From Collimonas humicola (GTDB lineage Bacteria > Pseudomonadota > Gammaproteobacteria > Burkholderiales > Burkholderiaceae_D), in assembly GCF_018304945.1 (NCBI RefSeq), contig NZ_JAGQEE010000003.1:372001-436000 (forward strand): 64,000 nucleotides of DNA, read 5' to 3'. Positions 1,043-14,791 of this stretch are shown here, piece after piece. Position numbers and translations under genes: made by a program. The notes beneath the pieces were generated by a model. That model worked only from the letters and a program-made list of their open reading frames with translations. It did not search any database and was not told the DNA's origin. Every line of letters starts with the position of its first letter. Position 1 is the first letter of the stretch.

Positions 1043-2215
1043 TCAGGCACTACCCTCCCTCAAGATCAAGCCGGCATCCGCAAACTCTTCCAGTATCTCC
1101 GCCACCCGCGTGGTCGCCACGGCCGTGGCCGCCTCCGCAGCCTGGTGGCCGTGGAAAGGCTTCTTGCGCGCACTGACCCACTTCAGCACCCGCCGCGCAT
1201 CAGGCCTCAGCACGCTGCGCTCCTGCGTGCGGCCGGACTGGATCACAAGCACATCGTCCTTGCCGCCGCGGCCCGCGTCGACACGGCACGCGACCTGGGG
1301 ATTGCGCTCAAATGAAGCGGTCAGCGTCCCGCCCCAGTCGGCCAGCAAATCGTCGGCGGACAGCTGCGCCACCGCCTCGCCGGCGGCATCGATCAGGTGC
1401 TGCAGGCGCTGCCGCTTTTGTTCATGGTCCGCGGTGGAACCGAGGCCGAAGGCCAGCTCGCGGCCGGCGTCATGCTTCAGCATCAGGTCCCTGATTTCAT
1501 CCATCAGCAAATCGGTCCAGGAAGGCGGATTGATGGTGAACAGCAGCGAGAGAGAAGGCTCGTGGTTGAGGGTGCAGTGCCAGTAGCCCGGATGCAGGTA
1601 CACCAGGGTGCCGGGCCGGGCCTCGAAACGCCGGCAGCCGGGCGGCATGCGGGTCGGGAAAGGCTGGCGCGCATAGCGTTTCATGTGTTCGTCAACCGCG
1701 GCGCCGGCCGACCAGCCGACATGCGGATTGACCAGGTGCTTGTTTTCAGCGACGCACCATTGCTTGCTGCCGATCAGCTGGATATTGATGGTGACGTTCG
1801 GATCGAAATGAAAGCCCGAACCGGTGCCTTTTGAAATGAAGGCTTCGAAATACACATCGTCCTGGCGCAGGCCGAGGTCGCGCTCCAGCTTGCGCGCGAT
1901 CGGTTCCAGCGCCGGTACATGGTCTTCGACCTTGCTCAGGTACAGCGTGTAGCCGCTTTCATAGAATGCCGGAAGCTGCCGTGCGCTGGCGTTGATCAGC
2001 GGGTTTTTGGTGTCGCGCGGGGCCCAGGCATCGGCCTCGCCGCGCCAGGCTTCCAGCAGCGCATCGATGCTGGCCAGCTCGGGGATGGCGGCGATTTCGG
2101 CAAAGCGCTGCGGCGAACCGTGGCCGACATAGGGTTTCTTTTGCCAGTAGCGCGCCATGAAAGCATCCAGCGTCAGCGGATGGACCAGATCAGCCATTCC
2201 CAGCTTTTTCATCAT
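1043..2215 (-). CDS. JmjC-domain (cupin) oxygenase, RoxA/YcfD-like
   Basis: A 390-residue Fe(II)/2-oxoglutarate oxygenase. The metal-binding HxD is seen in GFHFDPNVTINIQL and the distal histidine in HPGYWHCTL; a helical C-terminal region after about residue 270 matches the winged-helix tail of bacterial JmjC ribosomal oxygenases. YcfD/RoxA hydroxylates an arginine of ribosomal protein L16, and the length fits that family. The substrate of this protein is inferred, not proven, and a peptide-modifying cupin is an alternative. I chose the ATG at 2215 because GGGAG lies just upstream; the longer open frame to 2440 would add 75 residues without family resemblance and would run through the 30-bp palindrome. 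It is transcribed divergently from the peroxidase-glycyl radical fusion. Confidence 0.75.
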   Translation of the reverse strand: MMKKLGMADLVHPLTLDAFMARYWQKKPYVGHGSPQRFAEIAAIPELASIDALLEAWRGEADAWAPRDTKNPLINASARQLPAFYESGYTLYLSKVEDHVPALEPIARKLERDLGLRQDDVYFEAFISKGTGSGFHFDPNVTINIQLIGSKQWCVAENKHLVNPHVGWSAGAAVDEHMKRYARQPFPTRMPPGCRRFEARPGTLVYLHPGYWHCTLNHEPSLSLLFTINPPSWTDLLMDEIRDLMLKHDAGRELAFGLGSTADHEQKRQRLQHLIDAAGEAVAQLSADDLLADWGGTLTASFERNPQVACRVDAGRGGKDDVLVIQSGRTQERSVLRPDARRVLKWVSARKKPFHGHQAAEAATAVATTRVAEILEEFADAGLILREGSA

Positions 2216-2303
2216 CACTCCCGTCGATTCAGAGACCGGCCCCGAGCCTGACTGCTTTGCATAAACACTAGGCTTAATATTTCCAAATTGCAATATAACG
2301 GGA

Positions 2304-2333
2304 GCAGCTACTGTCAAATTTGACAGTAGCTGC
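2304..2333. promoter_or_regulatory. Perfect 30-bp palindrome in divergent promoter region
   Basis: The sequence reads identically on both strands over 30 bases with no loop; its centre is TGTCAAATTTGACA and its outer arms are GCAGCTAC/GTAGCTGC. It lies 88 bp upstream of the JmjC start and 140 bp upstream of the fusion-protein start. It is suited to binding a symmetric dimer (or two dimers). The regulator is unknown; I could not match it confidently to FNR, CRP or another family. Confidence 0.65.
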
Positions 2334-2473
2334 AGATTGGCGCTATCCGCGGCATGGCTTTCCGATAGAATAAATTTCCGCAAAGAAATTAAAACACGCT
2401 GGCCACACCGGCCCGCTGCCAGCGGCAATCGCTCTTCCACGGCCTCGCGCCTCGTTCAGATAAGGATCTCAAG

Positions 2474-5400
2474 ATGTTTATCGACGCTATCAAACATTCC
2501 CAGTACGGCCTGTTGACCCGGGCCATTTTCGGCCAGATCGCCACCATCACGCTGCATGACCACAGCCAGGCCACCGAAGCGGCATTGCTCAGCCTGATCC
2601 GCACGCTGGCGCAGGCGGCCAAGGCATCGCCGGCCAAGGCCGGCCTGGTGGCGGCCTTCGATCCCAACTTGTGGGGCGGCTGGCGCGACCGTGATATTCC
2701 GGTATCGCGCACGGTGCTGAACAACTCGCCCAAGCTGCGCGACAGCGGCGGCGACGTCCTGCTTTACCTGAAAGCAGACAACGCCGCAGCCGCCGCCCAG
2801 CTGATGGAAAGCGTGCGCCCCGGGCTGGAAGCGCTGGCGGCGCAGATCGAAATCCTGGCGGTCGGCAAACGGCCCGACGGCAAGGTGATGGGCGGCCGCT
2901 ACCTGGACGGCATCACCAATCCCAACGATCCGGTCAGCCTGGCCGCCGACATCCTGGCCGACGGCGAATTCCAAGGCGCCTGCTACGGCTTCACGCAGAA
3001 ATTCCTGTTCGAGTGGAGCAGCATCGGCGACATGCTGCCTGACGCCCAGGACGCCATGCTGGGCCGCGACCCGGCCGGCGCCATCCTGCCGCAACACGAC
3101 CACAACGCGCACATCCGCCGCGTGCATGTACTCGACAGCAACGGCGACAACCTCAAGCTGCTGCGCCAGGCTTTGCCGTTCGGCGAACATGCGGGCAGCG
3201 CCGCGCGCGAGAAAGGCTTGATGTTCGTCGCCTTCTGCAATGCCCAGCCGCGCTTCGAAACCATCATCAAGCACATGATGGGCGAGCTGCCGGAGCGGCC
3301 GGCGGACCGCCTGATGAGCGTGGTGCAGGGCGTCGCCGGCAGCTACTGGTATGTGCCGAACGCGCAGGAACTGAACGTGCCGGCGGCCGGCATCGACAAT
3401 GTCCAGGAAGAGCCGCACTGGCAGGTGCGCAGCAAGAACGGCTACCTGTTCTACAACGGCCAGGACTACCTGCACCAGATGAGCGAAGGCAAGTACCTTG
3501 CCGGCGATCCGCCCAGCCCGCGCCTGCTGACCTTGCTGGGACGCGCGTTTTCACACTGGAACGACGGCTGGCTCAAGCGCACCCCCTTCCCGCGCCTGCC
3601 GCATCTGTCGGCATTGGTGAACGAGGCGGAAGCGCCGTCGCTGACTTCTTCAGTAGCGCTGCGCAAGGCGCTGGCCAATCACAAGACGCTGGCCGGCCTG
3701 CTGTCCAGCCCGCAGTCCGATATCGCCCGCAACAACGGCTTGCTGCGCATCTATCCGGAAGAATTGCTGGTGGGCGTGATTCCCGATTTCACCCTCGGCC
3801 GCGGCAAGGAAGTGGTGCCCTACCTGAACCAGGATGAAACCGTGGCGGCCTGGCTCAAGGGCCAGCTGAACGAATGGTCGGCCATGGGCCACGTGGTGCC
3901 GCATTACCAGAAACTGGTGACGCTGGGACTGGGCGGCCTGATCGCCGAGCTGAAGCGGCAGATGGAAGCGACCGCGCTGCTGCAGCAAGACAATCCCGGC
4001 GACAGCGCTTTGAAAGAGCGGCTGGAATTCTATGTTTCAGCCGCGCTGTCGCTGGAAGGCGTGCAGGAATACCTGGGCAACTGGGCCACCCTGGCCGAAA
4101 CCGCCGCCAACGCCGCGCAGCGCTCCGGCACCGAGGAAAACGCCGCCAATATGCGCGCCGTCGCCGCCCGCCTGCGCCGCCTGCGCACTGAGCCGCCGCT
4201 CAGTTTCCTGGATGGCGTGCAGCTGGTGTTTTCCTTCCATTGCTGCCTGCACCTGGTGGGCGAACTGACCTCGCTGGGACGGCTGGACCAGATCCTGTGG
4301 CCCTTGCTGGAACGCGACAACATCGCTCCCGAGCGGGCGCAGGAAATCGTCGACTGCCTGTGGCTGAAGATCGGCGAGAATGCCTTCGTCAACCGCGGCC
4401 TGGTGACCGACTATGTCAACTACGGCACCACTGCCGTCTGCGGCTACGGCGGCAATTTCCCGCAGGGCGGCGGCATCAACCAATGGGTGCAGCAGATCAC
4501 CGTCGGCGGCTATGTCGCCAATGACGACGCCACCCCGACCGGCGGCGTCAATCCAGTCACCATGCTGTGCCTGAAGGCAGCGCGGCGCATCCCGGTCAAC
4601 GCCCCGACGCTGTCGCTGCGCGTGTACGACGGCATTCCCGACGAGATCATGGACGAGGCCGCCAAATGCCTGCTGGCCGGCGGCGCCCATCCGATCCTGT
4701 ACCAGGACGACCGCCTGTGCAAAGCACTGCATGACTCAGGCAGCAAGGTGACGCTGCGCTGGTCGCGCGACTATGCGGCGGACGGCTGCTACGAGCCGAT
4801 GCTGGCCGGCGCCACCGGTTTTTCCTTCAACAATGTGACGCCGATGACAGCGCTGGAGCAAACCCTGAACCAGGGCGCCTGCTACGGCGAGGCCGGTCCG
4901 GTCTACCTGCGCGGGCTGAAGCAGACCTTTCGCTCGCCGCCGGCGGCCGAGATCACCAGCTTCAAGATGCTGCAAGAGATCTTCCTGCAGCAGCTGGAGT
5001 GGATCACGATCCAGAGCTACAACGTGATCCTGGGCGGCTTCGGCAACCTGGCCGGCATCTGCCCCAGCCCGCTGCTGTCGGCGCTGATCGAAGGCTGCGC
5101 CGAATCCGGGCGCGACCTGACTGCCGGCGGCGCCCGCTTCAACATGATCGCGCCGCTCTGCGTCGGCGTCTCCAACACCATCGATTCGCTGTATGCGATC
5201 CAGAAGCTGGTGTTCGATCCCGCCACCGCCCTCACCACCTTGCCGGAACTGGTCGACTGCCTGATCAACGACTGGGGCTTCAACATGATCGAGCCCTATC
5301 AAAGCCAGCTGCTGGGTCCGGCCGATGCCGCAGAACGCGGCCGCCGCTACCAGGAATTGCGCAACGCGGCGCTGGCGCTGCCCAAGTGGGGCAGCGGCGA

Positions 5401-6022
5401 CGCCGAGGTCGACGCCCTGGGCGCCTGGGTGATGGAGCACACCGTGCGTATCTGCGTCGATGTCATACGCAAGCCGCATCCGGCATTGCAGCCGGTGCTG
5501 GACGGCATCGCCAGCACTTACGGCAGCGCCGAGTTCGTGATCACCCCCGGCATCGGCACCTTCGAAGGCTATGTCGGCGACGGCCTGCCCTGCGGCGCCT
5601 CGGCCGACGGCCGCCGCAACGGCATGCCGATCGCCTCCGACCTGTCGCCGGCGCCGGCGCCGCAAGACTTGCCGCCGGCGCCAGCCTTCCGCAACATCTA
5701 CCAGGCGCTGAAAAGCTGGCGCGTCGATGCCATCGAATATGGCCTGTCGAACGCCTCGCCGGTGGACATGAACATCGAGGAGGATTTTCCGCTGCAGCAG
5801 CTGCAGCGTTTTGTGAAAGCTTACGCGCGCGGCGAAACCGGCTCCAACCTGATCACCCTCACCTGCGCCGACCTGGCCACCTACCAGGCGGCAGTGAACG
5901 ATCCTGAGCGCTACAACCTGGTGCGGGTGCGCATGGGCGGCTGGACCGAGTTCTATGCCACCATGTTTCCGATGCACCAGGAACAGCATCAGCGCAGGCA
6001 GTATTTCACGCCCGGAGAGTAG
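2474..6022 (+). CDS. Fusion: YfeX-like DyP heme peroxidase + PFL-like glycyl radical enzyme
   Basis: An 1182-residue protein with two complete enzymes in one frame. Residues 1-310 are a P-type dye-decolourising peroxidase: YLDGITNP with D145, proximal heme ligand H213 in AHIRR, distal R231 in LRQALPFG. These sit almost at the positions of D143, H215 and R232 of E. coli YfeX. Residues about 400-1182 resemble the pyruvate formate-lyase/glycerol dehydratase family: the active-site loop DGCYEP gives thiyl C772 and E774, and the C-terminal loop RMGGWTEFY gives a candidate glycyl radical at G1156 in the place of RVSGY of PFL. The C-E pair is typical of dehydratase/decarboxylase-type members. The segment 310-400 is a linker of unknown fold. 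There is no signal peptide. The start is supported by AAGGATCT upstream. No radical-SAM activase gene is present in the window. The reaction is unknown. Confidence 0.85.
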   Translation: MFIDAIKHSQYGLLTRAIFGQIATITLHDHSQATEAALLSLIRTLAQAAKASPAKAGLVAAFDPNLWGGWRDRDIPVSRTVLNNSPKLRDSGGDVLLYLKADNAAAAAQLMESVRPGLEALAAQIEILAVGKRPDGKVMGGRYLDGITNPNDPVSLAADILADGEFQGACYGFTQKFLFEWSSIGDMLPDAQDAMLGRDPAGAILPQHDHNAHIRRVHVLDSNGDNLKLLRQALPFGEHAGSAAREKGLMFVAFCNAQPRFETIIKHMMGELPERPADRLMSVVQGVAGSYWYVPNAQELNVPAAGIDNVQEEPHWQVRSKNGYLFYNGQDYLHQMSEGKYLAGDPPSPRLLTLLGRAFSHWNDGWLKRTPFPRLPHLSALVNEAEAPSLTSSVALRKALANHKTLAGLLSSPQSDIARNNGLLRIYPEELLVGVIPDFTLGRGKEVVPYLNQDETVAAWLKGQLNEWSAMGHVVPHYQKLVTLGLGGLIAELKRQMEATALLQQDNPGDSALKERLEFYVSAALSLEGVQEYLGNWATLAETAANAAQRSGTEENAANMRAVAARLRRLRTEPPLSFLDGVQLVFSFHCCLHLVGELTSLGRLDQILWPLLERDNIAPERAQEIVDCLWLKIGENAFVNRGLVTDYVNYGTTAVCGYGGNFPQGGGINQWVQQITVGGYVANDDATPTGGVNPVTMLCLKAARRIPVNAPTLSLRVYDGIPDEIMDEAAKCLLAGGAHPILYQDDRLCKALHDSGSKVTLRWSRDYAADGCYEPMLAGATGFSFNNVTPMTALEQTLNQGACYGEAGPVYLRGLKQTFRSPPAAEITSFKMLQEIFLQQLEWITIQSYNVILGGFGNLAGICPSPLLSALIEGCAESGRDLTAGGARFNMIAPLCVGVSNTIDSLYAIQKLVFDPATALTTLPELVDCLINDWGFNMIEPYQSQLLGPADAAERGRRYQELRNAALALPKWGSGDAEVDALGAWVMEHTVRICVDVIRKPHPALQPVLDGIASTYGSAEFVITPGIGTFEGYVGDGLPCGASADGRRNGMPIASDLSPAPAPQDLPPAPAFRNIYQALKSWRVDAIEYGLSNASPVDMNIEEDFPLQQLQRFVKAYARGETGSNLITLTCADLATYQAAVNDPERYNLVRVRMGGWTEFYATMFPMHQEQHQRRQYFTPGE

Positions 6023-6150: not shown

Positions 6151-7578
6151 ATGACAAAGAACCCTGGCGCAGTCAATTTTCGCGCCGGCGACGGCCAGCC
6201 GGCGCGCAAGATACTGGCGGCGACCAGCATCAGCTACGCCATCGTGCTGCTCGACGCGTCGATCGTCAATATCGGCCTGGAACAGATCGGCGCCACGCTC
6301 GACAGCGGCGTCAGCGGGCTGCAATGGATCGTCAACGCCTACACCCTGAGCTTCGCCAGCTTTCTCATGACCGGCGGCACGCTGGGCGACCGCCTCGGCG
6401 CAAGAAACATCTACCTGGCTGGCCTCATGTTGTTCACGCTGGCGTCGGCGCTGTGCGGCTTCGCTCCCAACCTGGGTACGCTGGCCTTGGCGCGGGCGCT
6501 GCAGGGCTTAGGCAGCGCCATGCTGGTGCCCTGCTCGCTGGCGCTGATCAACCAGGCTTATCCCGATCCGGCCCGGCGCGCCGCGGCGATCGGCATGTGG
6601 ATGGGCTGCGGCGGCATCGCCATGGCTTCCGGTCCGCTGCTGGGCGGCCTGCTGATCCACGGCTTCGGCTGGCGCAGCATCTTTTTCGTCAACCTGCCGC
6701 TCGGCCTGGCCGGCATCTGGCTCACCTGGCCGCTGCCGCGCGACCGGGCGCCGGGTACGCGCCACTTCGATATTGCCGGCCAGCTGACGGCTATCATTGC
6801 GCTCGGCAGCCTGATCGCGCTGCTGATCGAAGCGCCGGCGCTGGGCTGGGGCTCGCTTCCCATCGTCGCCGGCGCCGTCGTCTGCGGCATGGCAAGCCTG
6901 CTGTTCATCAGGATTGAAACACGGCAGCCGCAGCCCATGCTGCCGCTATCGCTCTTTCGCAACGGGCTGTTCGCCGCCTCCGCGCTGGTCTCCATGGCCT
7001 CCGCCCTGGTCTTTTACGGCATGCTGTTCGCTTTCAGCATCTATTATCAGAGAGTGTTAGGCTACGCGCCGCTGCAGGCTGGCCTGGCGTTCCTGCCGAT
7101 GACTGTCATGGTGGCGACCGGCGGCCTGGTTTCCGGCCGCCTAGCGCGGTTATTCGGCGCGCGCGCATCGATGTGCGCGGCGTTCTGCCTGTATGCCATC
7201 GGCGCCGCCGGCATGCTCCTGCCCGAGCCGGGCTCGCCCTATTGGTTCGCTGTGCTGCCGATGCTCGCGATCGGCCTGGCTTCCGGTTTCATCTCGCCTG
7301 CCGCTACGGCGCCGGCCATGGGCACCGTCGAGAAAAGCCGCGCAGGCATAGCGGCAGCCGTGCTGAATTCAGCGCGGCAAACCGGCGCGGCATTGGGGGT
7401 GGCGATTTTCGGCGCGCTGCTGGCGACGCTGCAGCCGTTCGCGCAGGCGCTGCACATCGTGCTTGGAATGGTCGTTGCCATCTCGCTGGCAGCCGCGTTG
7501 CTATGGTGGTTTTCCACCAGGCCTTCAGCATGCTTGCAGCGCGTTCAAGCGCGATCGAAAAACGCGGCGCTGCGATGA
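6151..7578 (+). CDS. MFS efflux transporter, DHA2 (EmrB/QacA) family
   Basis: A 475-residue integral inner-membrane protein with about 14 hydrophobic segments. The N-terminal half carries LDASIVNIGLEQI, which matches the family signature (LDxTIVNVALP) of EmrB/QacA drug:proton antiporters, and the loop TGGTLGDRLGARNIY is the MFS motif A (GxLxDRxGrk). It would export hydrophobic toxic compounds using the proton motive force. The start is the ATG at 6151, preceded by GGAG. It follows the fusion gene in the same direction after a 128-bp gap and may be separately transcribed. No membrane-fusion partner gene lies beside it. Confidence 0.88.
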   Translation: MTKNPGAVNFRAGDGQPARKILAATSISYAIVLLDASIVNIGLEQIGATLDSGVSGLQWIVNAYTLSFASFLMTGGTLGDRLGARNIYLAGLMLFTLASALCGFAPNLGTLALARALQGLGSAMLVPCSLALINQAYPDPARRAAAIGMWMGCGGIAMASGPLLGGLLIHGFGWRSIFFVNLPLGLAGIWLTWPLPRDRAPGTRHFDIAGQLTAIIALGSLIALLIEAPALGWGSLPIVAGAVVCGMASLLFIRIETRQPQPMLPLSLFRNGLFAASALVSMASALVFYGMLFAFSIYYQRVLGYAPLQAGLAFLPMTVMVATGGLVSGRLARLFGARASMCAAFCLYAIGAAGMLLPEPGSPYWFAVLPMLAIGLASGFISPAATAPAMGTVEKSRAGIAAAVLNSARQTGAALGVAIFGALLATLQPFAQALHIVLGMVVAISLAAALLWWFSTRPSACLQRVQARSKNAALR

Positions 7579-12938: not shown

Positions 12939-14195
12939 TCACCTCACTTTGGCGGCCGTCGCCTCGATTTCCACCAGCGCGCCGGGCGGAGCAAGGCCAG
13001 CAATCTGGACCACTGCTCGCACTGGCTTGTTCGGTTGTTCCTTAGTCGCAAAGAATTTGCTATAACCGGCCTGGAAGCCGGCGAAATCGGCTTGCTGCTT
13101 GTTGCGCGGATCAGCCACCAGATACACTCTCAGCTGAATCACGTCCGCCATGGCAAGGCCTTGCCTGGCCAAGGCAGCTTCAACGCGGCGCAGCACCGAT
13201 ACTGTTTGCGTCTCAGTATCGCCGTAAGCCTCCAACGAACCTTGCGCAGCATCTTTGTTGCTCACCTCGGGCAACATGCCGCTCAGATAGACGGTACTGG
13301 CATTCGGCGGCACAAGCACTGCCTGCAACACCGGAAAATCAGAATTGGGCAATTGGACGCGTTCAATTGCCGGTGCAGCGGTGCTCAACAAACCTAGCGC
13401 CCGCAAACTGGCCTTGGCAATTTCCACGCGCTTTGCCAGTGCGCTAGGTAAGGCCGGCGGCGGGGTATCCTGAACGACATCGATGTTCAATGCAAAACTA
13501 TAGATTTTTCCGGCTTGCTCAAGCCACCCCACAAACCAGCCGACACCAGGGTCATCTTTGCTGGCCCAGCCGGTTTTTCCATGGAGTACCCAATCACTGC
13601 CCTCTTCCAGCTTGGTGATATCGCGCACCGCAGCTTGCACGGCTGCCGGGTAAGGGAGTTGTCCTTGCGCCAGGCGCGCCAGGAAGGCTGTTTGTTCGAC
13701 TGCGCTGATTTTCAGCGGCCCTTCCAGCCAAAAACTATCTACCGACTTGCCGATATCGGCGTTGCCGTAATTGAGCATGGCAATATTTTTTTGCATGCGC
13801 TCCAAGCCTATGCGCCGCGCAAGCAACTGGTAAGCGTTAACGTTGGAAGTCGCCATGGCTTCCCGCAAGCCCATGTCATGCTCCCAGGATTTCAAGAATT
13901 TCGGTTTGCCGTCGTGGTGATAAAACACTTCATCAACGCTACTGACCGCGCCGCTGGACAAACCTATGAGGCTATTGGGTATTTTGAAGGTCGACGCCGG
14001 GATGAAGCGGGTTTCTGCACGCTGTTGATCGTAACCGGTGAGCCGCTGTGTGCTTGGATCGTAAAGAACGAAAGTGCCATTTACTTTGGCTTTGTTGAAT
14101 ATTTCAGCAACGGCAGGACTTGCTTGAAAATCAAGCGCCCAGGTCGGGATGACAACCAGCATGGCGAGCAGAAAAATAACGCGGTGTAGTGACAT
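12939..14195 (-). CDS. Fusion: class D beta-lactamase + RidA (YjgF/YER057c/UK114) domain
   Basis: A 418-residue exported protein. Residues 1-20 are a signal peptide (MSLHRVIFLLAMLVVIPTWA). Residues 21-270 carry every class D motif: S68-T-F-K71, S117-N-V, Y143-G-N and K207-T-G, so the serine beta-lactamase/penicillin-binding fold looks active. Residues about 275-418 are a full RidA-type domain ending in RAVVQIAGLAPPGALVEIEA, with the conserved arginine R393. RidA proteins hydrolyse reactive enamines/imines, usually in the cytoplasm; here the domain would reach the periplasm. Typical OXA enzymes stop at about 265 residues. Start: ATG at 14195 with AAGGA upstream. The two parts are in one uninterrupted frame, so this is not an obvious assembly error. 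Confidence 0.85.
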   Translation of the reverse strand: MSLHRVIFLLAMLVVIPTWALDFQASPAVAEIFNKAKVNGTFVLYDPSTQRLTGYDQQRAETRFIPASTFKIPNSLIGLSSGAVSSVDEVFYHHDGKPKFLKSWEHDMGLREAMATSNVNAYQLLARRIGLERMQKNIAMLNYGNADIGKSVDSFWLEGPLKISAVEQTAFLARLAQGQLPYPAAVQAAVRDITKLEEGSDWVLHGKTGWASKDDPGVGWFVGWLEQAGKIYSFALNIDVVQDTPPPALPSALAKRVEIAKASLRALGLLSTAAPAIERVQLPNSDFPVLQAVLVPPNASTVYLSGMLPEVSNKDAAQGSLEAYGDTETQTVSVLRRVEAALARQGLAMADVIQLRVYLVADPRNKQQADFAGFQAGYSKFFATKEQPNKPVRAVVQIAGLAPPGALVEIEATAAKVR

Positions 14196-14791
14196 GATTT
14201 CCTTTATGAGGCGTTCATTTATGGAGATTCCAATGCTCGCTTGCGAGCAAGGCGGCGTTAGCAATCCCAACACTGCCGCTTTGCGGTCTCATCATTTCGC
14301 CGGCAACGCACGGAATTGCAAAAAGAATAATAAGCGCCGCGCCAAGTTACTCGCAACCGAGAACAATTTTGGCCTGACTATAGAAAATCTTATGGCAGAT
14401 CGATTTACTTTGGAAAACACCGGCGACAAACCGGTCACCACTCTTGCGTCGGCTTATGTGGAATACAAATCCTATCTCTCTCCTGATTGCCATTGCCAGG
14501 GCAATATCAAAAATGCAAGCATTGCGCTTTAGCGAGCAGGGATTGCCGATTGCAATGTCATTAATCGTCTGGCCAAGGTGTGCTAGCCCAGCCGGGCATT
14601 GCCATTTTTTGGCATTGACAAGGGCAGCGGTGTGGCGCGGGTTGAAATGGTCGCGCCGAGGGGATCGTCCCGCATCGAGGCAACGGGCGATTCTTGCGCA
14701 GCCATTGCATTGATAGAGTTGGCGGAGGCAGGCGCATCGCTTTCCGTCTCTTTAAAAAAATACAGCGCGGCCTGCATACCGCGCCCGGCGC
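14196..14791. other. Intergenic region, 596 bp, A+T richer than neighbours
   Basis: This gap lies between the start of the beta-lactamase gene and the stop of the msr gene. It is visibly richer in A and T than the genes around it and repeats the word ATTGC several times (about 14488-14705). An open frame of 127 codons (14149-14532, plus strand) has no recognisable protein character, so I do not call it. The promoter of the beta-lactamase gene must lie here. Confidence 0.5.
14755..14785 (-). terminator. Rho-independent terminator of the msr gene
   Basis: On the minus strand GCGCGG (14785-14780) and CCGCGC (14771-14766) form a stem with an 8-base loop, followed by TGTA and a run of seven T (14761-14755). 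It sits directly after the stop at 14792. Confidence 0.65.

Follow-up and report, generated by a model that had tools for sequence, protein, structure and literature searches.

How a glycyl radical enzyme (GRE), a kind of protein that requires a radical-SAM activase and is labile to oxygen, comes to be encoded in one reading frame with a heme peroxidase is the question raised by a gene of Collimonas humicola. The gene occupies positions 2474..6022 on the plus strand of the window, by which we mean the whole 64,000-nt stretch of DNA that was analysed (assembly GCF_018304945.1, contig NZ_JAGQEE010000003.1, 372,001-436,000 of the forward strand), and, judged from its domain and residue matches, it is one protein joining a P-type DyP heme peroxidase domain to a complete GRE domain. 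We propose, with confidence about evenly divided, that in aerobes the DyP domain replaces the radical-SAM activase and would start the GRE radical with H2O2 or O2.

The assignment of the whole gene as a DyP-GRE fusion of 1182 aa draws on its open frame (1182 codons, zero internal stops), on Pfam matches and on its recurrence elsewhere. Residues 1-310 (2474..3403, plus strand, as are all features of the gene) form the DyP domain, recognized by PF20628 (Dyp_perox_C, residues 143-297, E = 5e-21) and by solved DyPs including the deferrochelatase 5de0 (E = 1.5e-19), DypB and YfeX, which match residues 1-330 alone and which we take to be P-type. As in a P-type DyP, the domain has a distal acid, D145, in a GxxDG motif (2906..2908), a presumed proximal heme ligand, H213 (3110..3112), and a presumed distal arginine, R231 (3164..3166). 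A junction of residues 311-399 (3404..3670), which carries a conserved FYNxxDYL / FSxWxDxW block with invariant Y327, N328, F359, W362 and W366, leads into the GRE domain (residues 400-1182; 3671..6019). The latter is matched by PF02901 (PFL-like, residues 463-994, E = 6.5e-97), and when a profile built from 35 fused GRE parts, 33 of which the program used, is aligned with one of 10 canonical GREs, the match covers 665 columns and spans both loops (E = 2.3e-84, 22% identity). The best solved counterpart is the B12-independent glycerol dehydratase 1r8w (E = 3.5e-41), whose main aligned stretch pairs C772 with C433, E774 with E435 and H473 with H164, and places D447 of the dehydratase, presumably a substrate-binding residue, opposite a gap; G1156 falls opposite G763 in a separate second stretch that is weak alone (10.5 bits). 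The thiyl cysteine and catalytic glutamate thus lie in C772-Y773-E774 (4787..4795), and the glycyl radical position, aligned also with the canonical RVAGY loop, is G1156 in RMGGWTE (5939..5941), the catalytic roles of D145, H213, R231 and of the aligned dehydratase residues presumably being those of the known enzymes. By profile, then, PFL-like barrel coverage, a thiyl Cys loop and a glycyl Gly loop are all present, while the NCBIfam equivalog cut-offs for glycerol dehydratase or choline lyase function are far from reached. An initial annotation, made from the letters of the window, had read the same uninterrupted frame as a YfeX-type peroxidase followed by a full PFL-like half, and its six named residues (D145, H213, R231, C772, E774, G1156) all proved right in the multiple alignment described below and the 1r8w alignment; of the two GRE models that it had proposed as a domain check, PF02901 answered, and PF01228, the glycine-radical model, gave no match to the window protein.

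The fusion recurs well beyond this contig. It is present in full in 4 of 148 genomes of relatives (the window's own included), all of one genus, within which 3 of 14 other genomes carry it full-length and stop-free at 91-98% identity, and in 2 of 398 genomes of the phylum (again including the own genome). A scan of one genome per species over 84,980 species, which relied on two short peptide patterns and must have overlooked some members, gave 37 further loci from Pseudomonadota, Myxococcota, Bacteroidota, Gemmatimonadota, Planctomycetota, Acidobacteria and one metagenome-assembled genome (MAG) of Desulfobacca; a single plasmid, from Asticcacaulis, also carries the gene. Parts of both domains are present at 36 of the 37 loci and 35 match from residue 90 or earlier to residue 1175 or later; at contig ends, L061 stops at residue 948 and L066 begins at 465. 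The initial annotation had named an assembly error among the findings that would undo the fusion, and this is ruled out because the fusion recurs across complete and draft records of several phyla. Janthinobacterium, Massilia, Archangium, Asticcacaulis and Kordia, among the carriers, are generally known as aerobes.

Conservation was read from an alignment of 33 rows, namely the window protein and 32 of the 37 loci, leaving out L055, L058 and L064, not readable as one frame, and the truncated L061 and L066; the tree of fusions was built without the near-copies F_L002, F_L003, F_L036 and C_L016. H213, C772, E774, G1155, G1156 and W1157 are found in all 33 rows, and W671, like the junction residues Y327, W362 and W366, is invariant as well and could belong to an aromatic path between the two domains. 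Position 145 is occupied by D in 23 rows, by E in 6 and by H in 4, and position 231 by R in 29, by G in 3 and by S in 1. The four rows with H145 (L049, L050, L054, L065) are the same four that have G or S in place of R231, and they form one clade, whose heme pocket is altered, perhaps with a distal His. Within the genus, the DyP part has a dN/dS of 0.04-0.13 and the GRE part one of 0.06-0.12, and the values are 0.16-0.29 against the Janthinobacterium copy (L033): purifying selection acts on both halves. These ratios and the residue conservation rule out a decayed domain, and the domain E values rule out a chance open reading frame (ORF).

The architecture itself is in print, and both our own early view that it was new and the initial annotation's statement that no enzyme with this arrangement had been described had to be given up. 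A fused DyP B-PFL protein of Chaetomium cochliodes appears in PMC5041501 (2016), where its significance is called elusive, the fusion is said to occur in other genomes too (citing Strittmatter 2014) and a passage from proteobacteria to fungi is described; a DyP-PFL gene of Xylaria grammica appears in PMC8469222 (2021). In the passages of these papers that concern them, the fusions come without a function.

We searched for activases of the usual kind in the 41 distinct fusion-bearing genomes (the window genome and 40 others, L012 and L045 sharing one genome) with the models TIGR02494 (cut-off 174.35 bits) and TIGR02493. The window genome, rated 100% complete, contains no recognizable activase by these models, the best TIGR02494 match reaching 19.6 bits and TIGR02493 giving none at 1e-10; the CxxxCxxC motif is absent from the frames listed around the weak matches, and neither a PF01228 protein (a canonical GRE) nor NrdD, the anaerobic ribonucleotide reductase, was found in this genome. 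Of 14 control genomes, three, including that of E. coli, have an activase above the cut-off of these models. Across the fusion genomes, 37 of 41 have no activase over either cut-off; two pass that of TIGR02494 and two others that of TIGR02493, and each of these four activases adjoins, or lies within about 3 kb of, an ordinary PF01228 GRE. NrdD occurs in 5 of the 41 (G845 was scanned too, as a 42nd genome), so that 8 have an over-cut-off activase or NrdD and 33 lack both and also show no other canonical GRE at E 0.001, a marginal PF01228 match in G553 being a member of the present GRE clade. Nor does a conserved candidate lie next door: among 576 neighbouring ORFs at 40 loci, with flanks of up to 10 kb and often shorter, CxxxCxxC occurs in four, at three loci, none of them conserved.

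Two other explanations of the fusion are affected by these counts. The peroxidase could act as a shield, removing H2O2 near a glycyl radical that an unrecognized activase installs in trans; DyPs do consume H2O2, but its removal leaves O2, the agent that cleaves glycyl radicals. For such a shield speak the peroxide induction of the fungal fusion gene (3-fold by H2O2, 18.5-fold by peroxyacetic acid) and the putative PFL activase reported in that fungus, both from the passages of PMC5041501 on this gene; against it stand the 37 of 41 genomes with no activase over cut-off and the swap pattern described below, and we consider it unlikely. Similarly improbable in our estimate is activation by a radical-SAM protein of another family, with the DyP acting elsewhere, in product oxidation or heme iron handling. 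Weak matches to TIGR02494 and TIGR02493, in 19 and 21 of the 41 genomes, would suit this alternative, whereas no radical-SAM neighbour is conserved and the meeting of three DyP subfamilies with one GRE clade, set out below, points to the GRE rather than to a small-molecule step.

Replacement of the activase by the DyP gains weight from members of the same GRE clade that have no DyP at all. A search with a Hymenobacter GRE piece in 395 genomes of Fluviicola's phylum (Bacteroidota) gave four matches, and a further search, of 393 genomes of one order, also returned four, of which one had been met before. The five DyP-free members considered here (L083, L084, L094, L095, L096), all from such draws of Bacteroidota genomes, are 827-907 aa long and carry DGCWE and R-x-GGW. 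In all five a CxxxCxxC gene adjoins or overlaps the GRE gene, and such a neighbour also accompanies three of three canonical GREs (L087-L089). Two of the clade's five activases, which are 37-55% identical to one another, were scanned and reached 184.1 and 184.9 bits, above the TIGR02494 cut-off, so that this model does detect activases of this very GRE clade. In a direct tblastn test of 47 loci with three clade activases and three DyP types as queries, the activases matched strongly in 5 of 5 DyP-free loci and, in the 42 DyP-linked loci, gave one weak match only (L049, E = 1e-6, more than 9 kb from the gene), while the DyP queries had zero matches in the five activase-type loci over the 11-16 kb examined. 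The recognizable activase beside each DyP-free member argues for a swap rather than for the addition of a protective domain.

The same relatives bear on whether the fused GRE domain holds a glycyl radical at all. The glycine loop of the window protein reads RMGGW, against RVAGY in canonical GREs, and most members, the window protein included, escape PF01228, as would suit a GRE fold in which thiol and acid chemistry at C772/E774 works together with the peroxidase and no glycyl radical forms. Because the activase-linked relatives share the GGW loop, however, this loop is compatible with a glycyl radical; furthermore, G1156 is kept in 33 of 33 rows and the PF01228 cut-off (22.2 bits) is reached by the fused proteins of two genomes, G559 (26.5) and G564 (23.4). 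We regard a radical-free fold as very doubtful.

The strongest evidence that the coupling of DyP and GRE is functional comes from three DyP subfamilies, as assigned from their best matches, that are linked to a single GRE clade, two of them through fusions and one as the adjacent gene. Besides the P-type fusions, the locus L082:5415-9329 (+) encodes a separate fusion, of 1304 aa, in which a different DyP is joined to a GRE from this clade. This DyP matches Alr1585 best (5c2i, E = 1.8e-75) and also DyP2, both of which we take to be V-type, and barely aligns with the window DyP; in a tree of 26 chosen rows, which followed an earlier one of 32 chosen rows, the GRE part of L082 clusters with the activase-linked proteins (100/99). 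The genome of L082 has no activase (26.1 bits), and no CxxxCxxC frame within the 16 kb around the gene. Forcing all DyP-linked GREs into one clade was 27.9 log units worse (p-AU 0.003, for a group named only after inspection of the tree and with L097 not in the test), which disfavours a single origin of all DyP linkages. No second V-type fusion was found in 296 genomes of the order of L082, or in plasmids, where 0 of 43 records cover 80%. The third arrangement, at L097:4108-9034 (+), consists of a GRE gene, a separate DyP gene whose first ATG lies 39 bases past the GRE stop codon, and a HAD-like frame with DxDET by eye and no Pfam match. Its DyP matches the deferrochelatase 24rq, EfeB and DtpA, presumably I-type, and the Acidobacteria MAG that holds it also has a P-type fusion (L054). 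A Hymenobacter locus (L032) has the same GRE-then-DyP order with both genes frame-broken, and L097 and L032 form a group (92/86) next to the P-type fusions; the I-type link may represent a separate recruitment.

These observations are compatible with a broader scenario, possible but to be held with some reserve, in which one GRE clade swapped its activase for a DyP at least twice, perhaps three times (P-, V- and I-type), giving oxygen-tolerant enzymes started by H2O2 or O2. For the peroxidase the initial annotation had offered protection of the radical, heme-based redox control and radical generation; the last is now best supported, by the activase pattern and the three DyP subfamilies, and the other two less so.

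Under activase replacement, H2O2 (or O2 with a reductant) would raise the heme to a ferryl state, which would pull a single electron or a hydrogen atom into the GRE domain by way of aromatic residues, so that a radical arises at C772 either directly or via G1156. The C772 thiyl radical would then start an eliminase-type reaction, as the C-x-E motif suggests, on a small polar alcohol or amino-alcohol to give an aldehyde. In such a scheme the radical would be made on demand and not stored, because the oxidant that destroys ordinary GREs would here be the starter. Heme binding and loading, ferryl formation, long-range radical transfer and the thiyl reaction are all steps that we infer. A precedent for a DyP acting on a radical enzyme exists in DtpA, needed for the maturation of the radical copper oxidase GlxA (PMC4736821), and the peroxide induction of the fungal fusion gene also suits a starter role.

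Several points weigh against this proposal. We know of no GRE activated by a heme peroxidase. The case is built from sequence, conservation, gene content and gene neighbours. The clade with H145 and G or S at position 231 shows that the usual distal pair is not essential in every member, and an activase is present in two of the four genomes of that clade, although other GREs lie near it. A profile search could miss a divergent activase encoded at a distance, the weak model matches given above are frequent, some of the fusion genomes are MAGs of limited completeness, and the flanks of several loci are short. DyP-linked and activase-linked members fall mostly in separate clades, so that the pattern represents few evolutionary events and not 47; the V-type fusion is one case and the I-type arrangement two, and the topology test used a post hoc group. 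The two neighbours of the window gene fit no phosphodiester theme of the kind considered below. Finally, a putative PFL activase is reported from the fusion-carrying fungus (PMC5041501); with the changed distal pair, the incomplete MAGs and the small number of events, it is among the weightiest objections.

Gene neighbourhoods give some indication of what the enzymes may do. At the window copy, the fusion gene lies between a divergently oriented gene for a JmjC_2 cupin protein (1043..2440, minus strand; Pfam) and a downstream gene for an MFS transporter (6151..7578, plus strand; EmrB-like, under the model cut-off), both listed as neighbours without a claim of membership. No substrate operon is seen at this copy, and neighbours differ even among near relatives. 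Elsewhere, a PLD-like family (36-57% identical, E < 1e-120; domain confirmed by scan in L049 and L096) occurs within two genes of the activase-type locus L096, of the fused versions L049, L050 and L065 and of the two-gene version of Hymenobacter L032. Because the same family accompanies activase-type and DyP-linked loci, the pathway seems to be kept while the starter changes. Phosphoesterases of PF04185, grouped as a BLAST cluster and scanned for the domain in L042, L055 and L033, adjoin the fusion or lie one gene off in L042, L046, L047, L051 and L055 and are nearby in L033, and a DUF2608 family protein (scanned in L046) is encoded next downstream in L043, L045, L046, L047, L051 and L069. HAD genes adjoin L083 (just below the cut-off), L094 and L095; beside those of the latter two lie genes for aldehyde ferredoxin oxidoreductase (AFOR; L094:2302-4257 (-), L095:9238-11193 (+)), present at two of the five activase-type loci and hinting that the GRE product is an aldehyde. 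SUMF1-like genes are found one or two genes upstream in L031 and L082, with a XendoU gene also upstream in L082; on the Asticcacaulis plasmid (L031:3477-9391 (+)) a LamG protein, a DUF2278/LTD protein and the SUMF1 gene are directly upstream of the fusion. Faintly, these neighbours suggest a pathway in which a phosphodiester is cut, the phosphate is removed and the GRE converts the resulting alcohol or amino-alcohol to an aldehyde; many fusion loci show none of these genes.

Three further features were seen near these genes. A LodA-type quinoprotein oxidase, of a kind that produces H2O2, is encoded about 2.7 kb from the fusion gene in L067 (L067:16244-18328 (+)). Downstream of L036, L044, L053, L056 and L064 lies a common family of about 420-435 aa with starts that resemble signal peptides by eye, of which the two members scanned, L036 and L053, matched nothing in Pfam. 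In the window itself, a frame at 12939-14273 (-) encodes an odd fusion of a penicillin-binding/beta-lactamase-like transpeptidase domain (PF00905, E = 4.6e-30; class D by eye) with a RidA-like one (PF01042, E = 2.6e-16).

Overall, a widespread family keeps the GRE residues, mostly without a recognizable activase, and carries a peroxidase, and many of its carriers are aerobes. If activase replacement is right, it would be a new means of initiating radical catalysis, and eliminase reactions (dehydration, C-N cleavage) could then operate in air. Our literature search, with subscription papers largely outside its coverage, returned no proposal that a DyP starts a GRE; as far as it shows, the replacement hypothesis is new, the architecture being in print but unexplained.

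Compared with known systems, the window protein shares with the published DyP-PFL fusions (PMC5041501, PMC8469222) an N-terminal DyP, of type B in PMC5041501, and a C-terminal PFL-like domain; those fusions differ in being presented as hypothetical proteins without an assigned role, in passages that neither compare activases among bacteria nor mention a V- or I-type linkage or gene neighbours. With glycerol dehydratase and choline trimethylamine-lyase, C-x-E GREs of PF02901, it shares the Cys, Glu and Gly positions and the equivalent of H164, but differs from them in its GGW loop, the lack of an adjacent activase, the fused heme peroxidase and a profile identity of 22%. Its first domain resembles the P-type DyPs YfeX and DypB in D145, H213 and R231, whereas the fusions' DyP is joined to a GRE and one fusion clade has lost the distal Asp/Arg pair. 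The activase-linked GREs form one clade with the fused ones against canonical GREs (100/100), have the same DGCWE and R-x-GGW motifs and, in L096, a PLD-like neighbour related to those of fused loci, and differ in having no DyP and an adjacent radical-SAM activase in 5 of 5. A parallel in working principle only is found in the ribonucleotide reductases, in which a common thiyl-radical chemistry is initiated either at a metal site that uses O2 or from a glycyl radical. By analogy with their class I and class III enzymes, and on the same reserved footing as the swap scenario to which it belongs, the DyP could play for PFL-like enzymes the part of the diiron subunit in class I ribonucleotide reductase, with heme instead of diiron.

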